Assembly: GCA_030295235.1 (NCBI GenBank)
Contig: AP026123.1
Coordinates: 2,480,001-2,544,000, forward strand
From: Fistulifera solaris
Taxonomy: Eukaryota; Bacillariophyta; Bacillariophyceae; Naviculales; Stauroneidaceae
DNA: 64,000 bases
Direction: 5' to 3'
Below the pieces are notes generated by a model. The model ran no database searches and was not told where the DNA came from. It worked only from the letters and a program-made list of their open reading frames with translations. This document shows positions 8,635 through 64,000 of this stretch, in pieces (position 1 is the stretch's first letter; every line of letters starts with the position of its first letter). The position numbers and the translations under genes are program-made.

Positions 8635-9104
8635 TACCATTCCGCTCATACCGTTCGCTCTATTTGACAAACCGGGTTTTTGGTTCTTGCATTGTAGTAA
8701 CTTAGATAAAAAGAATTAAAACTTGATTTGATTCTATCAAAGCGGAATGCTTATGATATTGACCTCGTACGACTTCTATTTCGTTCACTGGCTTGACCTA
8801 GTCTGCGATACTATGTCTGCGTATTTTACTACCAGTATGAACCCAAGTGTTGTTCGTATTTCACCACGACTGCTCTCAGTCATGAGCAGATTGTAACTGT
8901 CACTAAGGGCGCTAGTCTGGTCGAAAGTGTACATATGACGGTTCCTATTTAACGGGGTCGATCGAAGCGACCTAATTTACTTATGTCGAAAAACTGATAT
9001 TAGAAGGTGGTTGGCGGTTGATGATATTTTTTCCGCAACGCTTGGCAAAGCCAACCTCATTTTTCATTTGTCGCAATCCATGCAACACGGATAAGATCAG
9101 GATC
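8635..9104. other. Intergenic region with one copy of a dispersed dyad element
   Basis: No gene is supported. Around 8820-8890 is TTTACTACCAG, about 35 bases, then CACGACTGCTCTCAGTCATGA. This is the same arrangement as elements near 26.15, 26.37, 36.65, 36.89, 50.12 and 50.35 kb. The longer open frame from 9018 runs through the upstream leader of the MYND gene and is not used. Confidence 0.4.
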
Positions 9105-9830
9105 ATGTCTTCCTCAAGTCATCTTTGTGCAGTTTGTCTTCAAAAGGCGAAGTACCGTTGCTCGCGCTGCCAAGAGACTTGGTATTGCTCGGTCGAACAT
9201 CAACGACAAGATTGGAAGTCGCACAAGGCGTCCGTCTGCTTGTCAGAAGATCCTCGTGTGCTCCAACTGATCGAAGCGATCTCGTGTGACAATAAAGCAG
9301 TAGTGAAGAAGTTGGCTTCCATCCCAGCTGTATTGAATGGAAGAGTCTCGTCGTATAATCCTACAGGACAGCCGCGAAGCTTGCGCAAGAAATGGTCTCC
9401 TTTGCATGAATGTACCCGAGTCGCCAACCTCACAGTGCTCAAGCTACTCTTGAAACAAAAACCCAATCTCGAAGTCGAAGACGAGACTGGAGCAACGCCT
9501 TTGTTTGTTGCAGTCAGTGTTAAGGCACATAAAGTCATTCGCACTTTACTCAATGCAGGAGCCGATCCAGATGCCACAACCATGGAAGGCTGGTCGGCGT
9601 TGGTGATTGCCGTTCGTAACTCCGACATTGAAACGGTGGAGACGCTTTTGCAAAACGACGTTGATGTGATGGGTAGTCGCGACCCTCTGGGACGTAACGC
9701 CCTAGACGTAGCTGAAAAGGTCGCCGCCGGTCGAGGGATGGCTTTCGGACTTGGCAAGACGACTTGGGAAACGTGCGAGAATGCGCAGGATATTGTGGAT
9801 ATGCTCGTTGGTCACTTGGATGATTGGTAG
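9105..9830 (+). CDS. MYND zinc finger-ankyrin repeat protein, copy 1
   Basis: The start at 9105 places a MYND finger at residues 8-45 (C8, C11, C19, C22, C28, H32, H40, C45; core CSRCQETWYCSVEHQRQDW). Three to four ankyrin repeats follow at about residues 95-215 (SPLHECTRVANLTVLKLLL, ATPLFVAVSVKAHKVIRTLL, WSALVIAVRNSD). The total is 241 residues. MYND fingers bind short proline-containing peptides and ankyrin repeats bind protein surfaces, so a scaffold role is likely; no enzyme domain is present. The gene is one of a tandem pair with the gene at 10418, similar throughout. An upstream in-frame start at 9018 would add residues with no counterpart in copy 2. Confidence 0.85.
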   Translation: MSSSSHLCAVCLQKAKYRCSRCQETWYCSVEHQRQDWKSHKASVCLSEDPRVLQLIEAISCDNKAVVKKLASIPAVLNGRVSSYNPTGQPRSLRKKWSPLHECTRVANLTVLKLLLKQKPNLEVEDETGATPLFVAVSVKAHKVIRTLLNAGADPDATTMEGWSALVIAVRNSDIETVETLLQNDVDVMGSRDPLGRNALDVAEKVAAGRGMAFGLGKTTWETCENAQDIVDMLVGHLDDW

Positions 9831-10417
9831 TGACGAGAATGTACTTGATTGTAGCTGCGATCTCGGTGTTGGTGATAAGAAGGGCACTGGACGAACTAAA
9901 TTTCGCAACCTATCCAAATAGACTACTAAAAAGCATAACGGAGTACTTTATAATGCATGAAGTTTCCGCATGACTGAATATCTTTCTAGTTTTTGGGCTA
10001 CTTACCCCGTAAAATCACAGCGTACTGACTGATTTTACCATGACTGCTCTTTCTATCCAGAGAGGACGTTGTTTTACTCGTTGAGCTTTTGTGTTTCTTT
10101 CCTGCTCTGCCTAGTTTGTTTCTTCGTGTGCTGACACTACCAGAAAGCGTCGGTCTGATTGGTAAGCAACTACAAGTACAGTAATGGCTATTCCATCCTT
10201 ACAAAGTCGAGATCGTAAACTTAGCGAACGATCTTCGATAGTCGGGACTGAAAATCATTTCAGTCGGAGAAATCTTGATTCCGGAGTACTTTTATTGCTA
10301 TACTAGACCCACCATCGTTTCGCGGATTTTTCGAAACGCCAGTTGACCACAAAAACACAAAAAGATCCGATTGCAACTAGCTCAATAACAAGAAGCTGCC
10401 TATAGCCTGTACTTGTC
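9831..10417. other. Spacer between the tandem MYND-ankyrin genes
   Basis: This 0.59 kb spacer should carry the terminator of copy 1 and the promoter of copy 2. A half-copy of the dyad motif (TTACCATGACTGCTCT) lies near 10036. No open frame of interest. Confidence 0.35.
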
Positions 10418-11131
10418 ATGCCCATGGAACGCCCTCTTTGTGCCGTTTGTCAGCAAGAAGCGACAGAACGATGCTCGCGCTGCCAAGAGACCTGGTATTG
10501 CTCAGTCGAACATCAACGACAAGACTGGAAAGAACACAAGGCAACGGTCTGTCTCGCCGAAGATCCTCGTGTGCTACAGTTAGTGGAAGCGATTACGAAC
10601 AATAATAGAGCCGTGGTAGAAGAGTTGGCGTCTATTCCAGCCGTGTTGAATGGCAAAGTTGCGTCGTATACTCCTAACGAACGAACTTTGCAGAAATGGG
10701 CCCCATTGCACGAATGTGTTCGATCTGCCAACCTCGACTTGCTTCAACTACTGCTACAAAAGCAACCCAAACTCGAAGTCAAAGACGATGACGGAGAGAC
10801 ACCCTTGTTCATTGCCGCCAGTGCTCGAGCGCCCCGCATCGTGCGCGCTTTACTCACTGCGGGCGCCAATCCGAACGCTTGCGGACAAGATGGATGGTCG
10901 GCCTTGATGATGGCGACACGGAATGCGGATTTGGAAACCGTACAAGCATTCTTTGATAGTGGTGCTGACGTCTATGCGGGTCATGACATGTTTGGTCGTT
11001 CCGCAATGGATTTCGCACAGGCATTGGCCACGGGTCAAGGATTACATTTTAGAGAGGGCGAGGATTTTGAAGAAGTCTTGGAGAGGGCGCGCCAAATGCC
11101 GGCTTTGTATCAGGCCTATTTGCGTGCATGA
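10418..11131 (+). CDS. MYND zinc finger-ankyrin repeat protein, copy 2
   Basis: The protein has 237 residues and the same architecture as the gene at 9105: a MYND finger at residues 8-45 with near-identical core (CSRCQETWYCSVEHQRQDW), a linker EDPRVLQLVEAI, and ankyrin repeats (APLHECVRSANLDLLQLLL, ETPLFIAASARAPRIVRALL, WSALMMATRNADLETV). The C-terminus diverges from copy 1. The two genes are direct neighbours in the same orientation, so a tandem duplication is the simplest origin. All eight zinc ligands are present. No targeting signal is seen. Confidence 0.85.
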   Translation: MPMERPLCAVCQQEATERCSRCQETWYCSVEHQRQDWKEHKATVCLAEDPRVLQLVEAITNNNRAVVEELASIPAVLNGKVASYTPNERTLQKWAPLHECVRSANLDLLQLLLQKQPKLEVKDDDGETPLFIAASARAPRIVRALLTAGANPNACGQDGWSALMMATRNADLETVQAFFDSGADVYAGHDMFGRSAMDFAQALATGQGLHFREGEDFEEVLERARQMPALYQAYLRA

Positions 11132-16516: not shown

Positions 16517-16945
16517 TCATCGCTTGGCAGCCGCAAATCCTGATTTGTTTGCAACATCAATGGATTGTTGTTTAAACTTGACTCCCACTTGAATCCATTC
16601 TAAAAAGACGACGGCTTCTTCGGGTGTCGTGCCGAATTTCTCGGCAAATTGGGCCGCCGACACGGAACCCTCTTCGCCCGCGGTCAAGAACTCGGCAATC
16701 GCCGAAGACTTTTCTTCCGTATTCAATTTGTATCGTTGAATGATACGATCAAACTCTTGTTTGTGTAATGTGTATTGATCGGCCTGATAAGCATCATCGC
16801 AAACACTCTGCTTGTGACGTTTCCAATCTTGTTTTTGGTGTTCCGTCGAACAGTACCACGCCTGTTTGCAACGCGAACAGCGTTGTGTGGCGACTTGCTG
16901 ACAAACAGCACATGCCTGAGTGCTCGGGATGGCGGCGGTGGACAT
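16517..16945 (-). CDS. MYND zinc finger protein, third local copy
   Basis: The 142-residue protein has a complete MYND finger at about residues 12-49 (CAVCQQVATQRCSRCKQAW, then YCSTEHQKQDWKRHKQSVC) closely related to the two MYND-ankyrin genes 6-7 kb upstream. Ankyrin repeats are absent. The C-terminal part is helical (EEKSSAIAEFLTAGEEG, FGTTPEEAVVFLEWIQVG) and looks like a small helical bundle with no family I can name. All eight ligands are present. The gene faces away from the LRR-like gene at 17394. Confidence 0.8.
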   Translation of the reverse strand: MSTAAIPSTQACAVCQQVATQRCSRCKQAWYCSTEHQKQDWKRHKQSVCDDAYQADQYTLHKQEFDRIIQRYKLNTEEKSSAIAEFLTAGEEGSVSAAQFAEKFGTTPEEAVVFLEWIQVGVKFKQQSIDVANKSGFAAAKR

Positions 16946-26119: not shown

Positions 26120-26560
26120 ATTTTACTATAGGCCAAAGTGTTGCCCGTGTTTACCAAGACTGCATTTCAGTCATGAACCATATTTTTCAAGCCACTTTAT
26201 GGTCGCTAAATTCTGATTGTTGGACTCAATGTGTGAAGTTTACTGCCTTCGCTGCCTCAAGAAGCATTTGCAGTGCGTGCCTTGACTCATCATGTCAAAA
26301 TGCTGTGCAGATCGTTGACTGCACTATTTACTATAGGCTCAAAGTGAAGACGACTTTTACCACGACTGCATTTGGTCATGAATCATGGGTAACTAAGGTT
26401 TTACAATACATTGTATACCAAGCCTTCGTGCGTTCGGCTCGCTTGATAAACTAGACTTCTTTTCCAAACCATACAAACACCTTCAGTAGCATTTGCAATG
26501 CATGCTTCAATGATTCATCGTGTCAAATGGATTGCAGACCGTGGAGTGCAGTAGTCAATA
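26120..26560. repeat. Tandem duplication containing the dispersed dyad element
   Basis: Two units about 206-228 bp apart. TTTACTATAGGC...GACTGCATTT...GTCATGAA occurs at about 26123-26180 and 26327-26386. A GCATTTGCA...ATCRTGTCAAA block occurs at about 26262-26305 and 26490-26530. The units are diverged and non-coding. Confidence 0.5.
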
Positions 26561-26720
26561 TGGACCCAAATTTAGATCTATGACCTATGGCCTAGACAAA
26601 GTTTTATTATAGAAGAAAACAACACCTAACATGTCCCCAATATCATTTACTCCACAAGATGTACAAGCTCTACACGACAAGTTCCCCGAATGGCGTGTCA
26701 AAAGCCTTCTTCGTTCATAC

Positions 26721-36154: not shown

Positions 36155-36507
36155 ACTATGTTGAGAAAAGAAGGAGAAGTAGTTACGAACTTGTCATTAT
36201 CACGCGAGAAAGACAAAACAAAACGAAGGTTGTCGCGTTTTTTCTGCGTGCTTTTTCTTTTTTCGTGCCGGTGCGCGGTAACGTCCTTAGTGCGCGGTGC
36301 ATGAATCGAATAAACGGTAAACCCACAACAAGAGGTTCCGTTTGGCGTCTCTTGCATCCGTCCAATGTTGTCAGATTGAGGGTCTGGACGTCAATCAGAG
36401 TGGCTTATATATCATGGATCGGGGGTAGAAATACGACGTGATTGGGATGGCTCTGTGGTTCAATTCCACAGTACGTTAGTATTTTTTTAAAACATAATGT
36501 CATATCA

Positions 36508-36910
36508 TTATAATTTCTGGTAAACCAGGTCGCAACAATGATGATTCTGAGCTACTTGTTAAGAGATTTCTTTATTTTCACGTTGAAAATCCGAGGATCG
36601 ACACCTTGAATTTTTACTATAAAACGGAGTGTTAGTTTACCCCATCCAAGACTGGATTGTACAGCAGTCATGAATCGAACAACAAAGGGTTCCGCGTTTT
36701 GCGTCTCTCGTATCCATCCATTTTCATTCAACTGCGAATACAATTATAATTTCGGGTAAACAACGTCGCAACAATGATGATGATTCTGAAATACTTGTTT
36801 AAAGTTTCTTTTATTTATACGTTGAAAATCCGAGGATCGACACCTTGAATTTTCACTATGAAACGGAGTGTCGGTTTACCCCATCCAAGACTGGATTGTA
36901 CAGTAGTCAA
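36508..36910. repeat. Tandem duplication of about 240 bp
   Basis: Two units share long near-identical blocks, for example GTTGAAAATCCGAGGATCGA at about 36582 and 36821, and CCCATCCAAGACTGGATTGT at about 36641 and 36880. Each contains a copy of the dispersed dyad element (ACTATRAAACGGAGTGT...GACTGGATTGTACAG.AGTCA). Similarity is high, so the duplication looks recent compared with the one at 26 kb. Confidence 0.65.
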
Positions 36911-37041
36911 GTAACGCAATTGCTTGATTTATCGCGATGCCTTTCACAATAACAAAACGTCGCCTTTGACATCAAAACAAAACATTGCCTACTCCATCAC
37001 CATCCTTTGCTCGTCCTACTATACTAGATGAAATCAATAAA

Positions 37042-37300
37042 CAGGTGTTTCTGCTTCGTGAATAATCTCTGTGTGACTCAAAGCACCGATGTTTCCAGAT
37101 TTTCTGAAACTTGCACAAAATCTCTGACTGATGCAAAACATCGATGATTCTTCCAGAATTTCTGGAACGTGAATGAATTTCTGTGTGACGGAAAAGCTCC
37201 GATTCCAGATTTTTGGAGCTTTGCACAAAATTTCTGTTTGACGCAAAACACCTATTCCAGATTTTCTGGAACGATCCAAAAATTCTGTAATGTGCACATG
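37042..37300. repeat. Small cluster of the palindromic satellite monomer (about 5 copies, ~52 bp)
   Basis: Five head-to-tail monomers carry a palindromic core of the TTCCAGATTTTCTGGAA type, followed by TTGCACAAAATTTCTGT, GTGACG and AAAACACC. It is the same family as the large array at 51-52.5 kb, but without the four-monomer higher-order structure. Confidence 0.65.
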
Positions 37301-37486
37301 CACATGGCTTTAAGGTCCTATACCTCGCATTGTTTGTCTTTGGATCATCTTTGGTTGCGTTTTGTTTGACGAAATCTTAAAAAACCACAAGAGAAAACTG
37401 TTTGGAGTAGAAGGAGACGAACGATCATTAAGGACGACTTTCGCTCTTCCGCGACGACGACGACGACTCTTTTTTTTTTCACTACA

Positions 37487-37990
37487 ATGCCTGCCGATGA
37501 GGAGGACTGGTTGCCTCGCAAGAAACCATCAACCAGCATCTTTTTTTTGTCCTTGTTGGGGAACGGCTAATAAATCGAGACATGTTCGATTTGCGGAACC
37601 AATAACAATGCCAGATGATTCTGGTAAGACGAATCTTCGTGTTGTTGTATTCTTGGATGTTGTTCTTTTCGTATCTAATCGTCTATTCTATTATATTGTG
37701 TTCTACAAACAGACACGATGATGATCCCATCGGTCGTCGACGACGACGGACCATTTCAAGAATCCTTTCAAACAAATGCCGAACTATTGGCGTCGTCCGA
37801 ACATGAATCGGCGTTCGATCGGATTCTGGGACCCTCTCAAAAACAAATCATGGAAGAAATCATTCGATTGTTTTTGTTTGTGATCTTATTGCGATGGAGA
37901 GAGGAACCCGCGCGGCTATCGAACGAGACGACCAAGACTACCAACAATAATGATCCTGTTAGGTACAAGCCAACAACTTCTACTCTGTGA
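37487..37990 (+). CDS. Small unknown protein with an RVxF-like motif (one frame break)
   Basis: ATG at 37487 and a GT-AG intron at 37624-37712 give a protein of about 137 residues once the T8 run at 37541-37548 is read as T7. The sequence starts MPADEEDWLPRKKP. It contains SRHVRFAEPI, which fits the RVxF docking consensus for protein phosphatase 1, then an acidic stretch (VVDDDGPFQESFQ) and one hydrophobic helix (IIRLFLFVILLRW) near the C-terminus. No family is recognised. The PP1 link is only a motif-level inference, and the gene itself rests on the clean intron and the continuity after one base change. Confidence 0.45.
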
Positions 37991-48678: not shown

Positions 48679-49215
48679 ACGTTCGTTGATCCGGCATTGT
48701 GGTCTAGCTAGCGTGTTGCGCTGTTTACATTTCACCATGCTATTCATCATGCTAGAGTCTAGAATTTCGGCTTGGATGCACGCACCCTAGCTATAACACC
48801 AAATTTAGTGTTTCGTCGGTGTTTTCAATAAGTGATAAGGCAGAACTGAATAATCATGCATGTCTTAGCACTACCAACACCCTAAATAATGATGGATAGA
48901 CATTCGTCCAACTTCGACCAAGTTCTCGACTTAATCTGGATTAGGTTCCCAATCGCTCACTCACGAGTGTATCCTTTCCGCTCTTCTGATTGGTCCGCGG
49001 AGACATCCACCGTCGACATGCGTTCGAGGGTTTGAGCGTATCTTGGGGGAGATAAACTTTTGAAAGTTGTACCGGACTTGCGTAGAAATCTACGACACGG
49101 GAATAGCGCTGCGGCCGATCAATCATGAAAAAACACCCGATCCGTTCGACACACAAAATCGTTTCGCACTCATTTTTGCTCGTCTTTTCTCTTTTCCATC
49201 CTTCTCATCTTGATT
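48679..49215. other. 0.54 kb intergenic region
   Basis: No gene is supported between the WAPL-like and methyltransferase genes. A short minus-strand frame (48941-49156) is not protein-like. Confidence 0.35.
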
Positions 49216-49911
49216 ATGTCACACGGTTTTGTCGTTCCCGCGTTTGTCTTTCAGCAGATGGCCGTCTTGGAAGAATGGAATGCCGTTGCGGACGAGTGGG
49301 ATGAACGCGACGGCGGTCGGGCCCAGTGGGTCTATCATTTGGTGAAAAAACACGTGCCCATCACACCCGACATGACCGTCCTCGACTTTGGTTGTGGCAC
49401 CGGCTTGATTGCCGATGCATTGCGTCAAGACGTAAAAAAGGTCGTCGGTGTGGATGCGGCCGTGTGCATGGTGGAAGTCTGTGAAGAGAAAGTGGAATTG
49501 CAGAAATGGAAGAATGTGCAAGTCTATCGTGCCTTGTTGGGTGATCCGAGCGATGAAGACACGCAAGAGATTCTACGCAAATACAAAGACAAGTTTGATG
49601 TGATTATTGCAAATTCCGTGCTGCTTTCGGTCATCCCCGAGACGATCGGAACGACCATGTCGGCGCTAGGTTGGCTTCTCAAGCCGAATGGCTATTTCTG
49701 TCATACCGAGAAGCCCGGTGACGAAAAGGGCTTTACAACGGAAAAAGCTCAGATTTTCTACGAAAAAGCCGGGCTAGAGATGGTTTCGACGAGCGTCGTC
49801 ACGTGCGATATCCAACCGGCGAGCGATGTCTTTTTCGGCATTGCACAGAAACGTTTCGGTCGCAAGCATTGCTGTGAATTTGAAGTGCCCTGCATCGACT
49901 ATTCCGAGTGA
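49216..49911 (+). CDS. Class I SAM-dependent methyltransferase
   Basis: The start at 49216 gives 231 residues; a second possible start, MAVLEEWNAVADEWDE, lies at 49258. Motif I is VLDFGCGTGLIADAL (about residues 57-71). VVGVDAAVCMVEVCEEK follows with the acidic residue after strand 2, then FDVIIANSVLLSVIPE (motif IV region) and LKPNGYFCHTEK. This is the standard seven-strand Rossmann methyltransferase, close to the small UbiE/UbiG-like type. Substrate cannot be deduced. The C-terminus has KHCCEFEVPC, an unusual Cys-rich ending. No targeting peptide is obvious. Confidence 0.75.
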   Translation: MSHGFVVPAFVFQQMAVLEEWNAVADEWDERDGGRAQWVYHLVKKHVPITPDMTVLDFGCGTGLIADALRQDVKKVVGVDAAVCMVEVCEEKVELQKWKNVQVYRALLGDPSDEDTQEILRKYKDKFDVIIANSVLLSVIPETIGTTMSALGWLLKPNGYFCHTEKPGDEKGFTTEKAQIFYEKAGLEMVSTSVVTCDIQPASDVFFGIAQKRFGRKHCCEFEVPCIDYSE

Positions 49912-50109: not shown

Positions 50110-50580
50110 ATTGTGATTCATGACTCAAGACTGAAATGTAGTCGCGGTCTCTTGGAACCTACAGAATGCGACTATAGTAGATACGGAAGACAACTCTTTT
50201 CGCAGGGCTCTTCGACGTGAAAGACAATGACATTTGATGCCAACGCTACCAAAGACGATGAAATAGCAACAACGACACATGGAGCTCAAGGAATTGGGAG
50301 AAAGATCGAATGGTAGGCAGCATTGTCGCTCAAAAGAGTATTGATTCATGACTCCTCAAGACTGAAAAGCAGTCTCGGTATCCTAGAACCTACAGAATGT
50401 GACTATAGTAAATACGGACGACGACCTTTTCGCAAGGCTCTTCGACGTAAAATAGAGGGATGTGTAATGAAAACGCTGCTTAAGACTATTTATAGCAGTA
50501 ACAACAAATGGAGCTCAAAAGATAATGCTGAACGATCGAATGGTAGGCAGCATTGTCGCTCAAAAGAGTATTTTTTATTC
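50110..50580. repeat. Tandem pair of a ~235 bp repeat
   Basis: Units begin at about 50112 and 50345 with ATTCATGACT and end with GGCAGCATTGTCGCTCAAAA. Shared internal blocks are GGAACCTACAGAATG, GACTATAGTA, TACGGA, GGCTCTTCGACGT and GGAGCTCAA. Each starts with the dyad element (GACTGAAATGTAGTC and GACTGAAAAGCAGTC). It is non-coding. Confidence 0.7.
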
Positions 50581-50929: not shown

Positions 50930-52480
50930 CCGCGATTCCAGAATATCTGGACCAGTCCCACAGTATTTCTGGTTGAGGGAAAAAGCGCGGATTAAAGAAA
51001 TTTGCAAATTTGCACAAATAGGCTGTCCTTCTCAAAACACTTAGTTTTCAAATTTCAGAAATGTCCACAGCATTTTTATATAATCCAAAACACCGAATCC
51101 AGAATATTTGGAACGTCCACGAAATGTCTGTTTTTGAACAAAAATAACTGGCCCAGAATTTTTGGACCAGACACACAGAATTTCTGGTTCATTAACCAGG
51201 ACTCCAGATTCCAGATTTTCTGGAATCTGCACAAACTGGCTGCTACTCTCAAAACGCTAGTTCAAGCTTATCATGAATGTCCACAGCAATTTATGAGCCA
51301 AAACAGTGATTCCAGAACATCTGGAACGCGCACGAAATGTCTGTTTGACTCGAAACAATAGGTCCTGAATTTCTGGACCAGTAAAACAGAATTTCTGGTT
51401 GACACAAAACCACGGATTCCTGAATTTCTGGAATTTCCACAAACTGGCTGTTATTCTCAAAACACTAGTTCTTGACTATAATGAATGTCCAAAGCATTTT
51501 ATGAGCCAAAACACCGAATCCAGAATATTTGGAACGTCCACGAAATGTCTGTTTTTGAACAAAAACAACTGGCCCAGAATTTCTGGACCAGTAAAACAGA
51601 ATTTCTGGTTGACACAAAACCACGGATTCCAGAATTTCTGGAATTTGCACAAACTGGCTTTAATTCTCAAAAACTAGTTCCCGAAGATCGCGAATGTCCA
51701 CAGCATTTTTATATAATCCCAAACATCGATTCCAGAATATCTAAAACACGCACGAAATGTCTGTTTGACACGAAACAACAACTGGTCCAGAATTTCTGGA
51801 CCAGTCACACAGAATTTCTGACTGACTAATCACGGATTCCAGAATTTCTGGAATTTGCACAAACTGGATTTAATTCTCAAAAACTAGTTCCCGAATATCG
51901 CGAATGTCCACAGCATTTTTATATAATCCCAAACATCGATTCCGGAATATCTGGAACGCGCACGAATTGCCTGTGTGACGCGAAACATCTAGTCCAAAAT
52001 TTCTGGTTGAAACAAAACCATGTATTCCAGATTTTCTGGAATTTGCACAAACTGTCTGTAATCGTCAAAGCACTAGTTCCAGCATATCAGGAATGTACAC
52101 AGCATTTCTAAATGACAACAAACACCGATTCCAGATAATCAGGAACGTGCACGAGATTCCTGTGTGATGCGAAACAACTGGTCCAGAATTTCTGGACCAG
52201 ATACACAGAGTTTCTGCTAGACACAAAACCACGGATTCCAGATTTTCTGGAATTTGCACAAACTGGCTGTTATTCTCAAAATGCTAGTTCCACAGCATTT
52301 CTGAATGACCACAAACACCGTTTTCAGAATATCTGGAATGGGCACAAAGTACCTGTGTGAAGCGAAACAACTGGTCCAGAAATTCTGGACCAGACACACA
52401 GAAGGTTTGGCCGACACAAAACCATGTATTCCAGAATTTCTGGAACTTGCACAAAAATCTCTGTGTGACGGAAAACAGCG
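50930..52480. repeat. Palindromic satellite with four-monomer higher-order repeats
   Basis: About 22 strong palindromic cores, plus several weaker ones, are spaced some 50 bp apart. Four monomer types alternate. Type A carries GATTCCAGAATATCTGGAAC, then CGCACGAAATGTCTGT. Type B carries GGTCCAGAATTTCTGGACC, then ACAGAATTTCTGGTTGACAC. Type C carries GATTCCAGAATTTCTGGAAT, then TTGCACAAACTGGCT. Type D has a decayed palindrome, then GAATGTCCACAGCATTT. Type A recurs at about 51094, 51309, 51516, 51728, 51938, 52127 and 52319, so the higher-order unit is 189-215 bp with about seven copies. The last two units are shorter. It is non-coding. Confidence 0.8.
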
Positions 52481-52509: not shown

Positions 52510-52745
52510 TTTTTATTTTACTGAAGTGCAGTCGTGGCGAAATACGGACAACATTTTGGGATAAAAGTAAATACGGAAGAAAACGTTTTGCAAGGCTCTT
52601 CGACGTAATTATAATTACGTTGAATACAGTTGCTGTTAAAGCCTATACCATGGCCACGACGACAAAGGGAGCTCAACAATACGCTGAACAAACAACATTT
52701 TGTCGCTCCAAAAATTTGATACATGACTGAATTGCAATCGTGGAT
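52510..52745. repeat. Diverged third copy of the ~235 bp repeat
   Basis: It shares GTGCAGTCGTGG, AAATACGGA, GCAAGGCTCTTCGACGTAA, GGGAGCTCAA and TTTTGTCGCTCCAAAA with the pair at 50.1-50.6 kb, in the same order. It lies directly after the satellite array. A further ACATGACTGAATTGCAATCG at its end begins another partial copy. Confidence 0.65.
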
Positions 52746-52956
52746 AAGTTGCGATACACTTTAGACAATAGTAGCTGTTGTTGTCCTTCTTTTGAAGCGG
52801 ACGGAAATTCTGAGCTGTGTGAAAACTTCTCGAAAAACGAAAACATTCTAATTCCATTTTCCATCGTCGAATCAAGCGAATGAATCTCTTAAAATCAAGA
52901 GAGATGGCTTTATAAGTAAAAGGATACGACTAAAGAAAGGGTGTACAAGTCAGAAT

Positions 52957-54681
52957 ATGACAGAGAATGTGAAAGAAGGATCCTTTAACGATGATGTGAC
53001 ACTCATTCATGTGCCGTCGTCGCTGTTGGCACTATCGGTGGTGCCCCTTCTCGGGATTGCTATCGTATCGTATCAGATGAATCTGGGATTGGAAACTTCC
53101 ATCTTGTGGGGAACCGTACGATCCTTTGTGCAATTATCGATTTTGAGTGCTATCTTGCAGCCGATCTTTTATTGGGGACAAGACAACCCCTGGGTGGTTC
53201 TGGCGTACCTCTGTTTTATGGTCCTCCTCGCGTCCTATGAAGCAACCAGTCGGTCTCAATATCACTTTCAAAATGTCTTTACGTACATGTTCTTGGCCAT
53301 TGCACTGAATATCACTGTGGTTTCCTTGTTTGCCTTTGGGATTATTCTCAAACCACAGCCCTTATGGAATCCTCAATACGTCATTACGATTGTCGGCATG
53401 CTGCTGGGCAATGGCATTACGGGCATCAGTCTGGCGTTGAATAGTATTACCAGCAGTTTCGTCGAGCAACCCTTGGAAATTGAACTGCATCTTTCTTTCG
53501 GAGCTTCTCCAGTGGAAGCGTGTCAACGCCTCGTGCGCGATGCCGTTCGTGTCAGTACGACCCCCATGTTGAATTCCATGGCCGTCATCGGATTGGTGTC
53601 GATCCCGGGCATGATGACAGGACAAATTTTGGCGGGATCGTCGGTGATGGAAGCGGCTCGCTATCAACTGTTGATCTTGTATCTCATTGCGGTCACCGCC
53701 TTTGGGACGGTGCTCACTGAAATTTGGCTGGTGCAGAGAGTCGCGTTTGACCGGCAGGCACAAATACTGCGGCCTAATTTCTTTTTTCCAAAGCAATCTG
53801 CATTTCACGATATAAAATCATTTTTAGAAAATGTATTGAAACGAAGAGAGAATTCGCGTTTACAGCGTTTGAACGAAAACACCAATCTGCCCGACTACCG
53901 TTCTATTGATGATGCTTCAGCAAAAAACTCATCCGAAACGACGATTGAGTTTATACTAGCGGTGGATCGCGCTGCAGACGGTTGCGAAAATCAAACAAGT
54001 CTTTTGTCGTTTCAAGATCTGTCTCAAAGTATAGAACGGACAGAAAAAGACCCCTTACTGCTGTTTGACCGAATTTCACACACAATTCATTACGGTGATA
54101 TGGTGTTTGTCGTGGCACCCAGTGGTGCTGGCAAATCAACTCTCTTGCGAATGTTATCCAAACTAATTTTTACCGATGCAAGCAATCGTATCCTGTTGGA
54201 GGGACGTTCGACGTATTCCCCCACTGTTTGGCGCAAAAGGATCCGCTACGTACGCCAGAACAAAGTTGACATTCCAGGCACGCCTCGCGATATGATTGTT
54301 CGCATTTTGACATTTCAATCCTGGAAGATTTCGAAACACTCCATGCCATTTACAACGCAGCAAATGATCAGTTCGGTGTTACACTTTATCATCGAATTCG
54401 GCTTGGAGGAAGAGTGCATTGACAAATTGTGGAAGGACCTTTCGGGTGGCGAGTCTCAAAGAGTCTACCTTGCAATCGCGCTGGCATCACAACCCGATGT
54501 TTTATTGTTGGACGAAAGCACCAGCGCTCTCGACCTGGATTCCAAACTTCTGGTCGAACGCGTGCTTTGGAAAATTGTCTTGGAAAAGAGAATGGGTATA
54601 CTCTGGATCACGCACGATACGGAACAAATTGATCGAATGACTTTCCCTCCCAAAGCATTTCAAGGTAACTCTTCGAGTTAG
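52957..54681 (+). CDS. One-chain ABC transporter: FetB/STAR2-type permease fused to FetA/STAR1-type ATPase
   Basis: The 574-residue protein has an N-terminal UPF0014 permease (about residues 20-265, seven or so membrane segments). Family marks are GNGITGISLALNSI, FGASPVEACQRLVRDAVR, TTPMLNSMAVIGLVSIPGMM and TGQILAGSSV. A polar linker (270-365) leads to an ABC ATPase: Walker A APSGAGKST (387-395), signature LSGGESQR (495-502), Walker B VLLLDEST, and H-loop WITHDTEQ. Bacterial FetA/FetB (iron export) and plant STAR1/STAR2 (aluminium tolerance) use two separate polypeptides. Here both parts form one frame with no break, so a homodimer would be a complete transporter. Substrate is unknown; a metal or sugar-nucleotide is inferred from the family. 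No targeting signal is clear. Confidence 0.87.
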   Translation: MTENVKEGSFNDDVTLIHVPSSLLALSVVPLLGIAIVSYQMNLGLETSILWGTVRSFVQLSILSAILQPIFYWGQDNPWVVLAYLCFMVLLASYEATSRSQYHFQNVFTYMFLAIALNITVVSLFAFGIILKPQPLWNPQYVITIVGMLLGNGITGISLALNSITSSFVEQPLEIELHLSFGASPVEACQRLVRDAVRVSTTPMLNSMAVIGLVSIPGMMTGQILAGSSVMEAARYQLLILYLIAVTAFGTVLTEIWLVQRVAFDRQAQILRPNFFFPKQSAFHDIKSFLENVLKRRENSRLQRLNENTNLPDYRSIDDASAKNSSETTIEFILAVDRAADGCENQTSLLSFQDLSQSIERTEKDPLLLFDRISHTIHYGDMVFVVAPSGAGKSTLLRMLSKLIFTDASNRILLEGRSTYSPTVWRKRIRYVRQNKVDIPGTPRDMIVRILTFQSWKISKHSMPFTTQQMISSVLHFIIEFGLEEECIDKLWKDLSGGESQRVYLAIALASQPDVLLLDESTSALDLDSKLLVERVLWKIVLEKRMGILWITHDTEQIDRMTFPPKAFQGNSSS

Positions 54682-62548: not shown

Positions 62549-62898
62549 ATGTACCTGTATTTGGATTACTGAGCGGTCTGATACGAGATAATAACGACTT
62601 CAGCACCTGTTTCTGCAAAATGATGAAAACTGCAACGGCTTTATTTTTTGCGGCTTCGTTTCTGGTGTCTTTCAAGTCGTATCGGGAACGCCAACGGTGT
62701 CTTTTACGATTCATTCCGCATTCCCGAGTCCCGAAATCTATGGACTGATGTTCTTTTCGTTTCTATTTCCCTTCGACTTCTCAATGGCCGTTCGTATCTT
62801 CCAAGGCATATAGTATGCACACGCAATTCATAAAAACAACACCATTGCAAAATTGCAGCCATTTTTTGTGAGCTTCCTTCCGTCATCCACCACTGAAC
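62549..62898. other. 0.35 kb divergent spacer
   Basis: Between the small acidic protein and the first mitochondrial paralogue. No gene is supported. Confidence 0.35.
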
Positions 62899-63340
62899 AT
62901 GACTCTTCAAACTATTTTCCGACATAGCACTAGATTGGCTCGACGTCGCTTAGCTTCGACCGCAGCAGTCCCCAAGCCTCCCGTTCCCGAGGCCATCTTG
63001 AAAAGAATGACTTCAAAACGAACTACCTTAGTGATCCGTCGACCTATCCGTTATTTGGGGGTCATGGCAGCGGCGGGGTGATTGTCGTCATCTTTACGGT
63101 CAATATGGTGAATTACAAGAACTGGAGTATCCTTCCTTCGTCGAAAAACGAGACTTTGGAAAAGATCCAACTCCGACCAAGAAGTCAATTACGGAGATTG
63201 TTTCGCGAGAACCGATTACGTTTCACCCGCAGGCCATGAAGGACACTCGAGCGGAAAAGAAAGGTCTTGGTGTCGAACATAAGGAAATGTTGAGCGCACC
63301 CGGGTCCATGAAGCCTTCGGATCAGTATGAAAAAATTTAA
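62899..63340 (+). CDS. Small mitochondrial membrane protein, paralogue 1 (two frame breaks)
   Basis: The N-terminus MTLQTIFRHSTRLARRRLAS is Arg-rich and amphipathic, a good mitochondrial presequence. The frame breaks at the A4 run 63001-63004 and the TTT at 63155-63157, each one base short. Restored, about 147 residues read KRNDFKTNYLSDPSTYPLF in part, then one membrane segment (VIVVIFTVNMV), NYKNWSILPSSKNET and SITEIVSREPITFHP. This parallels paralogue 2 at 63430-63834 block by block (DFKTTFLSDPSTYPL, GYKNVKITPSAKHET, LVEIITREPRGFH). It may be a small inner-membrane complex subunit, but no family is recognised. Confidence 0.65.
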
Positions 63341-63429
63341 TGAATTATTCATAGTGTATAATATGTCGATGTTTTTTCTATTTAGATACATTCATGGTGA
63401 GAAGATTTTATAGATGTAACATTTGCTGT

Positions 63430-63834
63430 TTATCGTCCTTTGGATTTCAACCACTCTTCATGGTCAACTCCAAGTCCTTCTCGTCGAATATCCTTAAATC
63501 CTTGAGCGTGGAAACCTCTAGGCTCTCGGGTAATGATCTCGACGAGCGTGGTTCGGCGACCCGAATCTTGTGGCATCGTCTCGTGTTTCGCCGAAGGAGT
63601 GATTTTCACATTCTTATAACCAAGTCCATTGATGGACATGCCGACCATGAATGTCATGGCCGTTGTCATGATCACAATCAATGGATACGTCGAGGGGTCG
63701 CTCAAAAAAGTAGTCTTGAAATCTTTGTTCTTGGTAAGAGATGCCGGAATCGGTGGTTTGGGGGCGGTCGCAAGAGAAGCAAAGCGTCGGCTGGCCAAAG
63801 TGGCGTTGCGCTGCATGATGGTACGGAGACTCAT
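63430..63834 (-). CDS. Small mitochondrial membrane protein, paralogue 2
   Basis: An intact 134-residue protein. It begins MSLRTIMQRNATLASRRFAS, an Arg-rich mitochondrial presequence with a likely cleavage after the RRFAS segment. A Pro-rich turn (APKPPIPASL), DPSTYPLIVIMTTAMTFMVG with one membrane segment, a Lys-rich loop and EEWLKSKGR at the end follow. Only 89 bp separates it from the convergent paralogue 1. The conserved DPSTYPL and REP.(G/T)FH blocks suggest the same role for both, possibly in a respiratory complex. No database match can be claimed. Confidence 0.7.
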   Translation of the reverse strand: MSLRTIMQRNATLASRRFASLATAPKPPIPASLTKNKDFKTTFLSDPSTYPLIVIMTTAMTFMVGMSINGLGYKNVKITPSAKHETMPQDSGRRTTLVEIITREPRGFHAQGFKDIRREGLGVDHEEWLKSKGR

Positions 63835-64000
63835 GGTTTAGATTTGCTAGAGCAAAGAAAGATATTTGAAAGTTTTTGTGAGATATTGGATTGTGAGAAG
63901 AGAATGTGTTAGTTTGAAACTGTTTTGACACGACGAAGATGCAAAGAATTTGCGAAGAATGCGAACCCGACGGGCCCCCAATGAGAATTTTTGACGCGAA

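Follow-up and report, generated by a model that had tools for sequence, protein, structure and literature searches.

Is a 1.5-kb array of short palindromes, lying between two genes, a centromeric satellite on a small scale, a cluster of sites for a DNA-binding protein, or a repeat grown by amplification? The window, i.e. the whole 64-kb stretch of DNA analysed, holds such an array at 50930-52480, where the initial annotation had correctly placed it: nhmmer matches to a 53-column monomer profile span 50933 to 52476. The most likely explanation is either a cluster of sites for a protein, multiplied by amplification, or a neutral minisatellite, and not a centromere. The array and its irregular parts are as follows.

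50932..52480, + strand: main array, about 26 monomers of ~52 bp in ~210-bp A-D-C-B units (TRF, autocorrelation, nhmmer, monomer listing)
50932..51096, + strand: diverged first unit (nhmmer E 8.9e-9, then 9e-4 and 1e-3; monomer listing)
51988..52020, + strand: truncated B monomer of 33 bp, with 22 bp gone between its two AATTTCTGG copies (monomer listing, alignment of the higher-order units)

The array is non-coding. The longest stop-free frame overlapping it has 141 codons and extends outside it, and the unit lengths vary from 188 to 211 bp, which counts against a protein-coding repeat. Rfam gave no match in the array region. Each monomer is composed of a 17-bp dyad, whose consensus and purest form is TTCCAGAA-T-TTCTGGAA, and of a spacer of about 35 bp with the common elements GCACRAA, CTGT and CAAAACA. 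Cut at the dyads, the monomers measure 49-58 bp, truncated or diverged ones excepted. The autocorrelation of the array has its top peak at 210 bp (z 13.0), inside the 190-215 bp range in which a peak had been predicted, followed by 52 bp (11.2), 420 bp (7.0) and 608 bp (6.1), with minor peaks at 20 and 32-33 bp; TRF called periods of 210, 189 and 193. Periodicity at both the monomer and the multi-monomer scale (52, 210, 420 bp) is that of a tandem minisatellite with higher-order repeats, as is the fact that monomers of the same type are more alike across units than monomers of different types inside a unit. The mean identity inside types is 0.88 (A), 0.81 (B), 0.75 (C) and 0.71 (D) against 0.41-0.64 between types, so the four types are real. 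The hierarchical structure that had been described is thereby confirmed. The order of the types had been given as A, B, C, D, but on the + strand it is A-D-C-B; moreover D is degenerate, and the diverged first unit has a clear dyad in its first monomer only.

Type A had been said to return every 189-215 bp for about seven units, and seven starts are indeed found (51209, 51417, 51627, 51837, 52025, 52236 and 52429), separated by 208, 210, 210, 188, 211 and 193 bp. The two short steps are due to deletions: the 188-bp spacing results from the 22-bp loss in one B monomer, which is the exact distance separating the two AATTTCTGG copies inside B, and the 193-bp spacing from an 18-bp loss in one D monomer. 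The neighbouring units at 51627 and 51837 share 0.91 identity, and the C monomers at 51097 and 51518, 421 bp apart, are identical across 52 aligned bases. Such near-identities, together with the deletion footprints, are marks of unequal exchange and slippage. The dyads also give a helical phasing vector of length 0.44 at 10.5 bp, a trivial outcome of the regular 52.5-bp spacing from which we claim nothing.

The four types are represented by these dyads.

51626..51644, no strand: type A dyad, perfect copy ATTCCAGAATTTCTGGAAT; other A dyads start at 51209, 51417, 51837, 52025, 52236 and 52429
51781..51805, no strand: type B dyad with perfect 12-bp arms, ACTGGTCCAGAATTTCTGGACCAGT; others start at 51151, 51362, 51572, 52181 and 52374
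51310..51326, no strand: type C dyad, TTCCAGAACATCTGGAA; others start at 51097, 51518, 51730, 51940, 52129 and 52322
51678..51694, no strand: type D dyad, degenerate, inner pair 4 being C-G and not A-T; others start at 51261, 51469, 51888 and 52077

At least 6 of 8 arm positions pair in 21 of the 26 monomer dyads, and at least 7 of 8 in 14. The array has 17 centres at which 7 or more of the 8 positions pair, against about 1 in Markov-shuffled copies and 0-3 in each of the other 1551-bp tiles of the window. Type A has TTCC/GGAA arms and is symmetric as far as pair 9. Type B has GGTCC/GGACC arms, its symmetry reaching pairs 11-12 in good copies. The centre of type C is asymmetric (A-A at pair 1), and type D retains the outer TTC/GAA. 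A weaker second dyad, like CACAGAATTTCTG(T/G), lies in the spacer 19-22 bp from the main one; it averages 3.6-4.8 of 7 pairs (A, B, C and the copies at 37 kb described below) against 1.8 at a random centre, figures that are indicative only because the offset was picked as the best of 22. This second dyad suggests that the 52-bp monomer may itself have begun as a shorter CAGAATTTCTG unit, present in two copies that diverged.

It had also been proposed that the arms changed together so that symmetry was kept. Between types this stands, in a few events: relative to A, type B has pairs 8-9 replaced (T-A and A-T by G-C and G-C) and its symmetry extended outward through pairs 10-12, and in D pair 4 is swapped from A-T to C-G relative to the other types. 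Inside types A-C it does not stand, for there the arms mutate independently: the 17 single-arm changes at paired positions all break their pair, none is compensated, and no paired change occurs among copies of one type. This absence of compensation is weak evidence, since few double changes are expected at such divergence. The pair-breaking changes nevertheless show that symmetry is not enforced in every copy; it is a property of the types and is not repaired copy by copy. The outer arms of type B, furthermore, duplicate a half-site (CTGGtCCAG and CTGGaCCAG), so that several paired changes could stem from one template-switch or duplication event.

The surroundings of the array include two genes, a separate repeat family and a second array of the same monomers.

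49210..49911, + strand: upstream gene, class I methyltransferase (Pfam Methyltransf_12 E 1e-13)
50114..50572, + strand: tandem pair of a separate ~230-bp repeat (AAATACGG...GGAGCTCAA) upstream of the main array (80% identity, alignment)
52520..52773, + strand: third, diverged copy of the ~230-bp repeat, downstream of the main array (64-67% to the upstream copies)
52957..54681, + strand: downstream gene, UPF0014/FetB-like permease fused to an ABC ATPase (Pfam UPF0014 E 3.1e-67, ABC_tran 7.3e-22)
37061..37303, + strand: second, older array of the same monomer family, 4-5 monomers (TRF period 52; blastn 62-82% to the main array; nhmmer E down to 2.3e-10)

Some 470 bp separate the end of the main array from the ATG (52957) of the downstream transporter gene, in which the FetB-like permease and the ABC ATPase share one reading frame; its best NCBIfam matches are FetB and FetA, both under their cut-offs. 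The second array, overlooked in the initial annotation, also between two genes and 13.8 kb from the main one, is without the A-D-C-B order. Its dyads are nearest type A, with an identity of 0.87 against 0.66 for the spacer and 0.57 for the shuffled null. About 300 bp downstream of it lies a probable + strand gene with a start near 37609, which was read by eye with one intron. Thus both arrays are intergenic, in the same orientation, and ~300 or ~470 bp upstream of a + strand gene; nhmmer revealed no third array on either strand of the window. The ~230-bp family occurs in inverted orientation at 26122-26570 as well (the copy at 52520-52773 is 61% inverted to 26124-26373) and is tandemly doubled at two places. 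Rfam had no match to it, and blastn did not find it around the 37-kb array, so the ~230-bp and the palindromic families are probably independent.

Other duplications are present in the window. A tandem duplication (36502-36916, 86% identical, 236-bp step) lies directly upstream of the 37-kb array. Neighbouring duplicate genes with a MYND finger and ankyrin repeats occupy 9018-11131 (71% DNA identity), and an inverted fragment is found at 16811-16912. At 62898-63835 a small gene occurs in two inverted, convergent copies (about 59% alike across 940 bp), of which the + copy is apparently frameshifted relative to the - copy. The window further contains introns, a tRNA-Sec, a guanylate cyclase fused to a phosphodiesterase, and LRR proteins, content that points to a eukaryotic alga and probably to a diatom.

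We then compared divergence within types at dyad and at spacer columns. The values were 0.055 and 0.141 for A, 0.090 and 0.269 for B, and 0.188 and 0.273 for C, respectively, whereas in type D the dyads show no better conservation than the spacers. In a stratified permutation test p was 0.0027 (A+B), 0.0021 (A+B+C) and 0.0048 (A-D), the test using paralogous copies, which exchange sequence, and excluding the array-edge monomer 52429. The lower divergence of the dyads in A-C hints at constraint; homogenisation among copies could mimic it.

The motif content was examined with regard to heat-shock factors (HSF). CCAGAAnTTCTGG occurs 7 times in the main array, 0 times in shuffles and once elsewhere in the window (37 kb), and TTCnnGAA occurs 17 times against 1.1 expected (16-fold enrichment), although such an excess arises in any tandem array regardless. 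An oomycete HSF binds TTCTAGAA by EMSA (PMC11267843). The HSF family, binding TTCnnGAA in another stramenopile, is thus a possible source of binders, with an incomplete fit. As in heat-shock elements, the arms of A and C read TTCCAGAA/TTCTGGAA, with at most two TTCnnGAA units per dyad; these two-unit sites sit in A, C and some D copies. The array differs from heat-shock elements in its middle gap, of 1 bp (GAAnTTC) rather than 2, in type B, where no TTCnnGAA is found, and in three-unit elements of alternating nGAAn with 2-bp gaps (TTCnnGAAnnTTC, GAAnnTTCnnGAA), of which the array has 0. It is therefore not a set of canonical heat-shock elements.

Searches elsewhere returned little. The array pattern matched once among 84,980 bacterial and archaeal species genomes and once in IMG/VR; both matches have periods divisible by three, appear to be coding repeats from unrelated proteins, and were rejected. 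An earlier version of the pattern had no match in the prokaryote and viral collections. The 17-mer TTCCAGAAnTTCTGGAA alone matches 43 IMG/VR stretches, with one site each and no arrays. A search with the flanking transporter gave no related eukaryotic contig and one partial match at 25%. In the literature searched, the core sequences appeared in no relevant paper, and no higher-order repeat was described from a diatom.

Several explanations have to be weighed against these results. The comparison with centromeres made in the initial annotation finds no support. A centromeric satellite or kinetochore-binding array would be formally alike in its monomer and higher-order structure, yet is barely conceivable for 1.5 kb of intergenic sequence in gene-dense DNA of about 43% GC with a second small array nearby, and the centromeres of one studied diatom are AT-rich and non-repetitive (PMC7082073). 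That the array is transcribed into hairpins, as the precursor of a small or structural RNA, is very unlikely: both strands of one higher-order unit do fold better than shuffles (z -3.5 and -3.8), but palindromic DNA necessarily folds so on both strands, the arm changes inside types are uncompensated, and Rfam is without a match in the region. We also consider it unlikely that the monomer reached 37 kb and 51 kb as part of a non-autonomous mobile element (e.g. as subterminal repeats). The two dispersed arrays would fit this, as would the other repeat family on both sides of the main array with its inverted pair at 26.1-26.6 kb. Against it, the array edges have no terminal inverted repeats, all listed inverted repeats coming from the dyads; the flanking repeat is missing around the 37-kb array; and the proteins scanned contain no transposase or reverse-transcriptase domain.

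How the array arose is clearer than what it does. Amplification through exchange and slippage is the best-supported account of its origin, as the pattern itself shows in the 210- and 420-bp autocorrelation, the 0.91-identical neighbouring units and the 22-bp deletion between the AATTTCTGG copies. The ~52-bp monomer, which bears a strong dyad and, 19-22 bp from it, a weaker one, multiplied first and diverged into four types; the four-monomer block then multiplied in its turn in ~210- and ~420-bp steps, as by unequal exchange or slippage. It is quite possible that nothing more is involved and that the array is a neutral minisatellite, its dyads useless to the host, promoting amplification through fork hairpins, slippage and unequal exchange, and kept alike by exchange, while the paired changes between types would be single template-switch events. 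The lack of compensatory change inside types A-C, the visible slippage-type deletions of 22 and 18 bp and block duplications of 420 bp, and the folding of both strands agree with this, as does the half-site repeated in the B arms, from which one event could yield several paired changes; template switching at quasi-palindromes is a known mutational route (PMC7202029, PMC3820800). The conservation of dyad columns relative to spacers (p about 0.002-0.005) and the dyad common to a separate array 13.8 kb away speak against neutrality, and exchange tracts longer than 17 bp would not alone single out the dyad.

As to function we place slightly ahead, and tentatively prefer, a homotypic cluster of candidate dimer-binding sites amplified by unequal exchange and slippage. 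The dyads would be bound by a dimeric or tetrameric DNA-binding protein, with the main array acting as a site cluster upstream of the gene that starts at 52957, and the array at 37 kb likewise upstream of its own neighbour gene. This reading is favoured by the lower divergence of dyads than spacers in A-C, by the retention of the dyad at 37 kb next to a spacer of only weak likeness, by the excess of CCAGAAnTTCTGG and TTCnnGAA over background, by the placement of both arrays upstream of + strand genes, and by the binding of TTCTAGAA by the oomycete HSF. Against it stand the 17 of 17 uncompensated arm changes; the D dyads, no more conserved than spacers, so that symmetry is not maintained in many copies; the missing TTCnnGAA in B, the type with the longest symmetry; and the missing three-unit element. 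A broader proposal, which we regard as improbable, is that the two arrays belong to a dispersed, lineage-specific family of palindromic arrays serving an algal nuclear genome as a cis-regulatory or origin-like module, like viral hr elements, with A and B as two site classes for different dimeric proteins or subunits in a fixed order.

Upstream of a predicted FetAB-like transporter, a bound array would present symmetric sites that range naturally from intact to degenerate, and this could help to find a regulator in a group where few factors have been mapped. A neutral array would be a clean example of short palindromes seeding higher-order minisatellites in gene-dense DNA.

Among known systems, homotypic clusters of transcription-factor sites, including tandem-repeat enhancers, resemble the array in having many near-identical symmetric sites, intergenic and upstream of genes; its regular 52-bp spacing and four-type order are unusual for them. 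The baculovirus hrs and the family of repeats of EBV oriP are non-coding arrays of direct repeats, each with a palindrome bound by a dimer, and serve as viral enhancers or origins. Our array is likewise made of direct repeats each with a palindrome in non-coding DNA, but those systems are viral and unrelated in sequence, while it lies in apparently nuclear eukaryotic DNA. With alpha-satellite-like centromeric repeats it shares monomers of fixed order forming a repeated higher-order unit; it differs by units of 52 and 210 bp in place of nucleosome-sized monomers, and by 1.5 kb in gene-rich DNA in place of very long arrays. Minisatellites and VNTRs with higher-order structure are likewise built of short tandem monomers grouped in multi-monomer repeat blocks, and show block duplications and slippage deletions; the array is distinguished from them by a dyad in each monomer, strong in A and B, that diverges less than the spacer in A-C.
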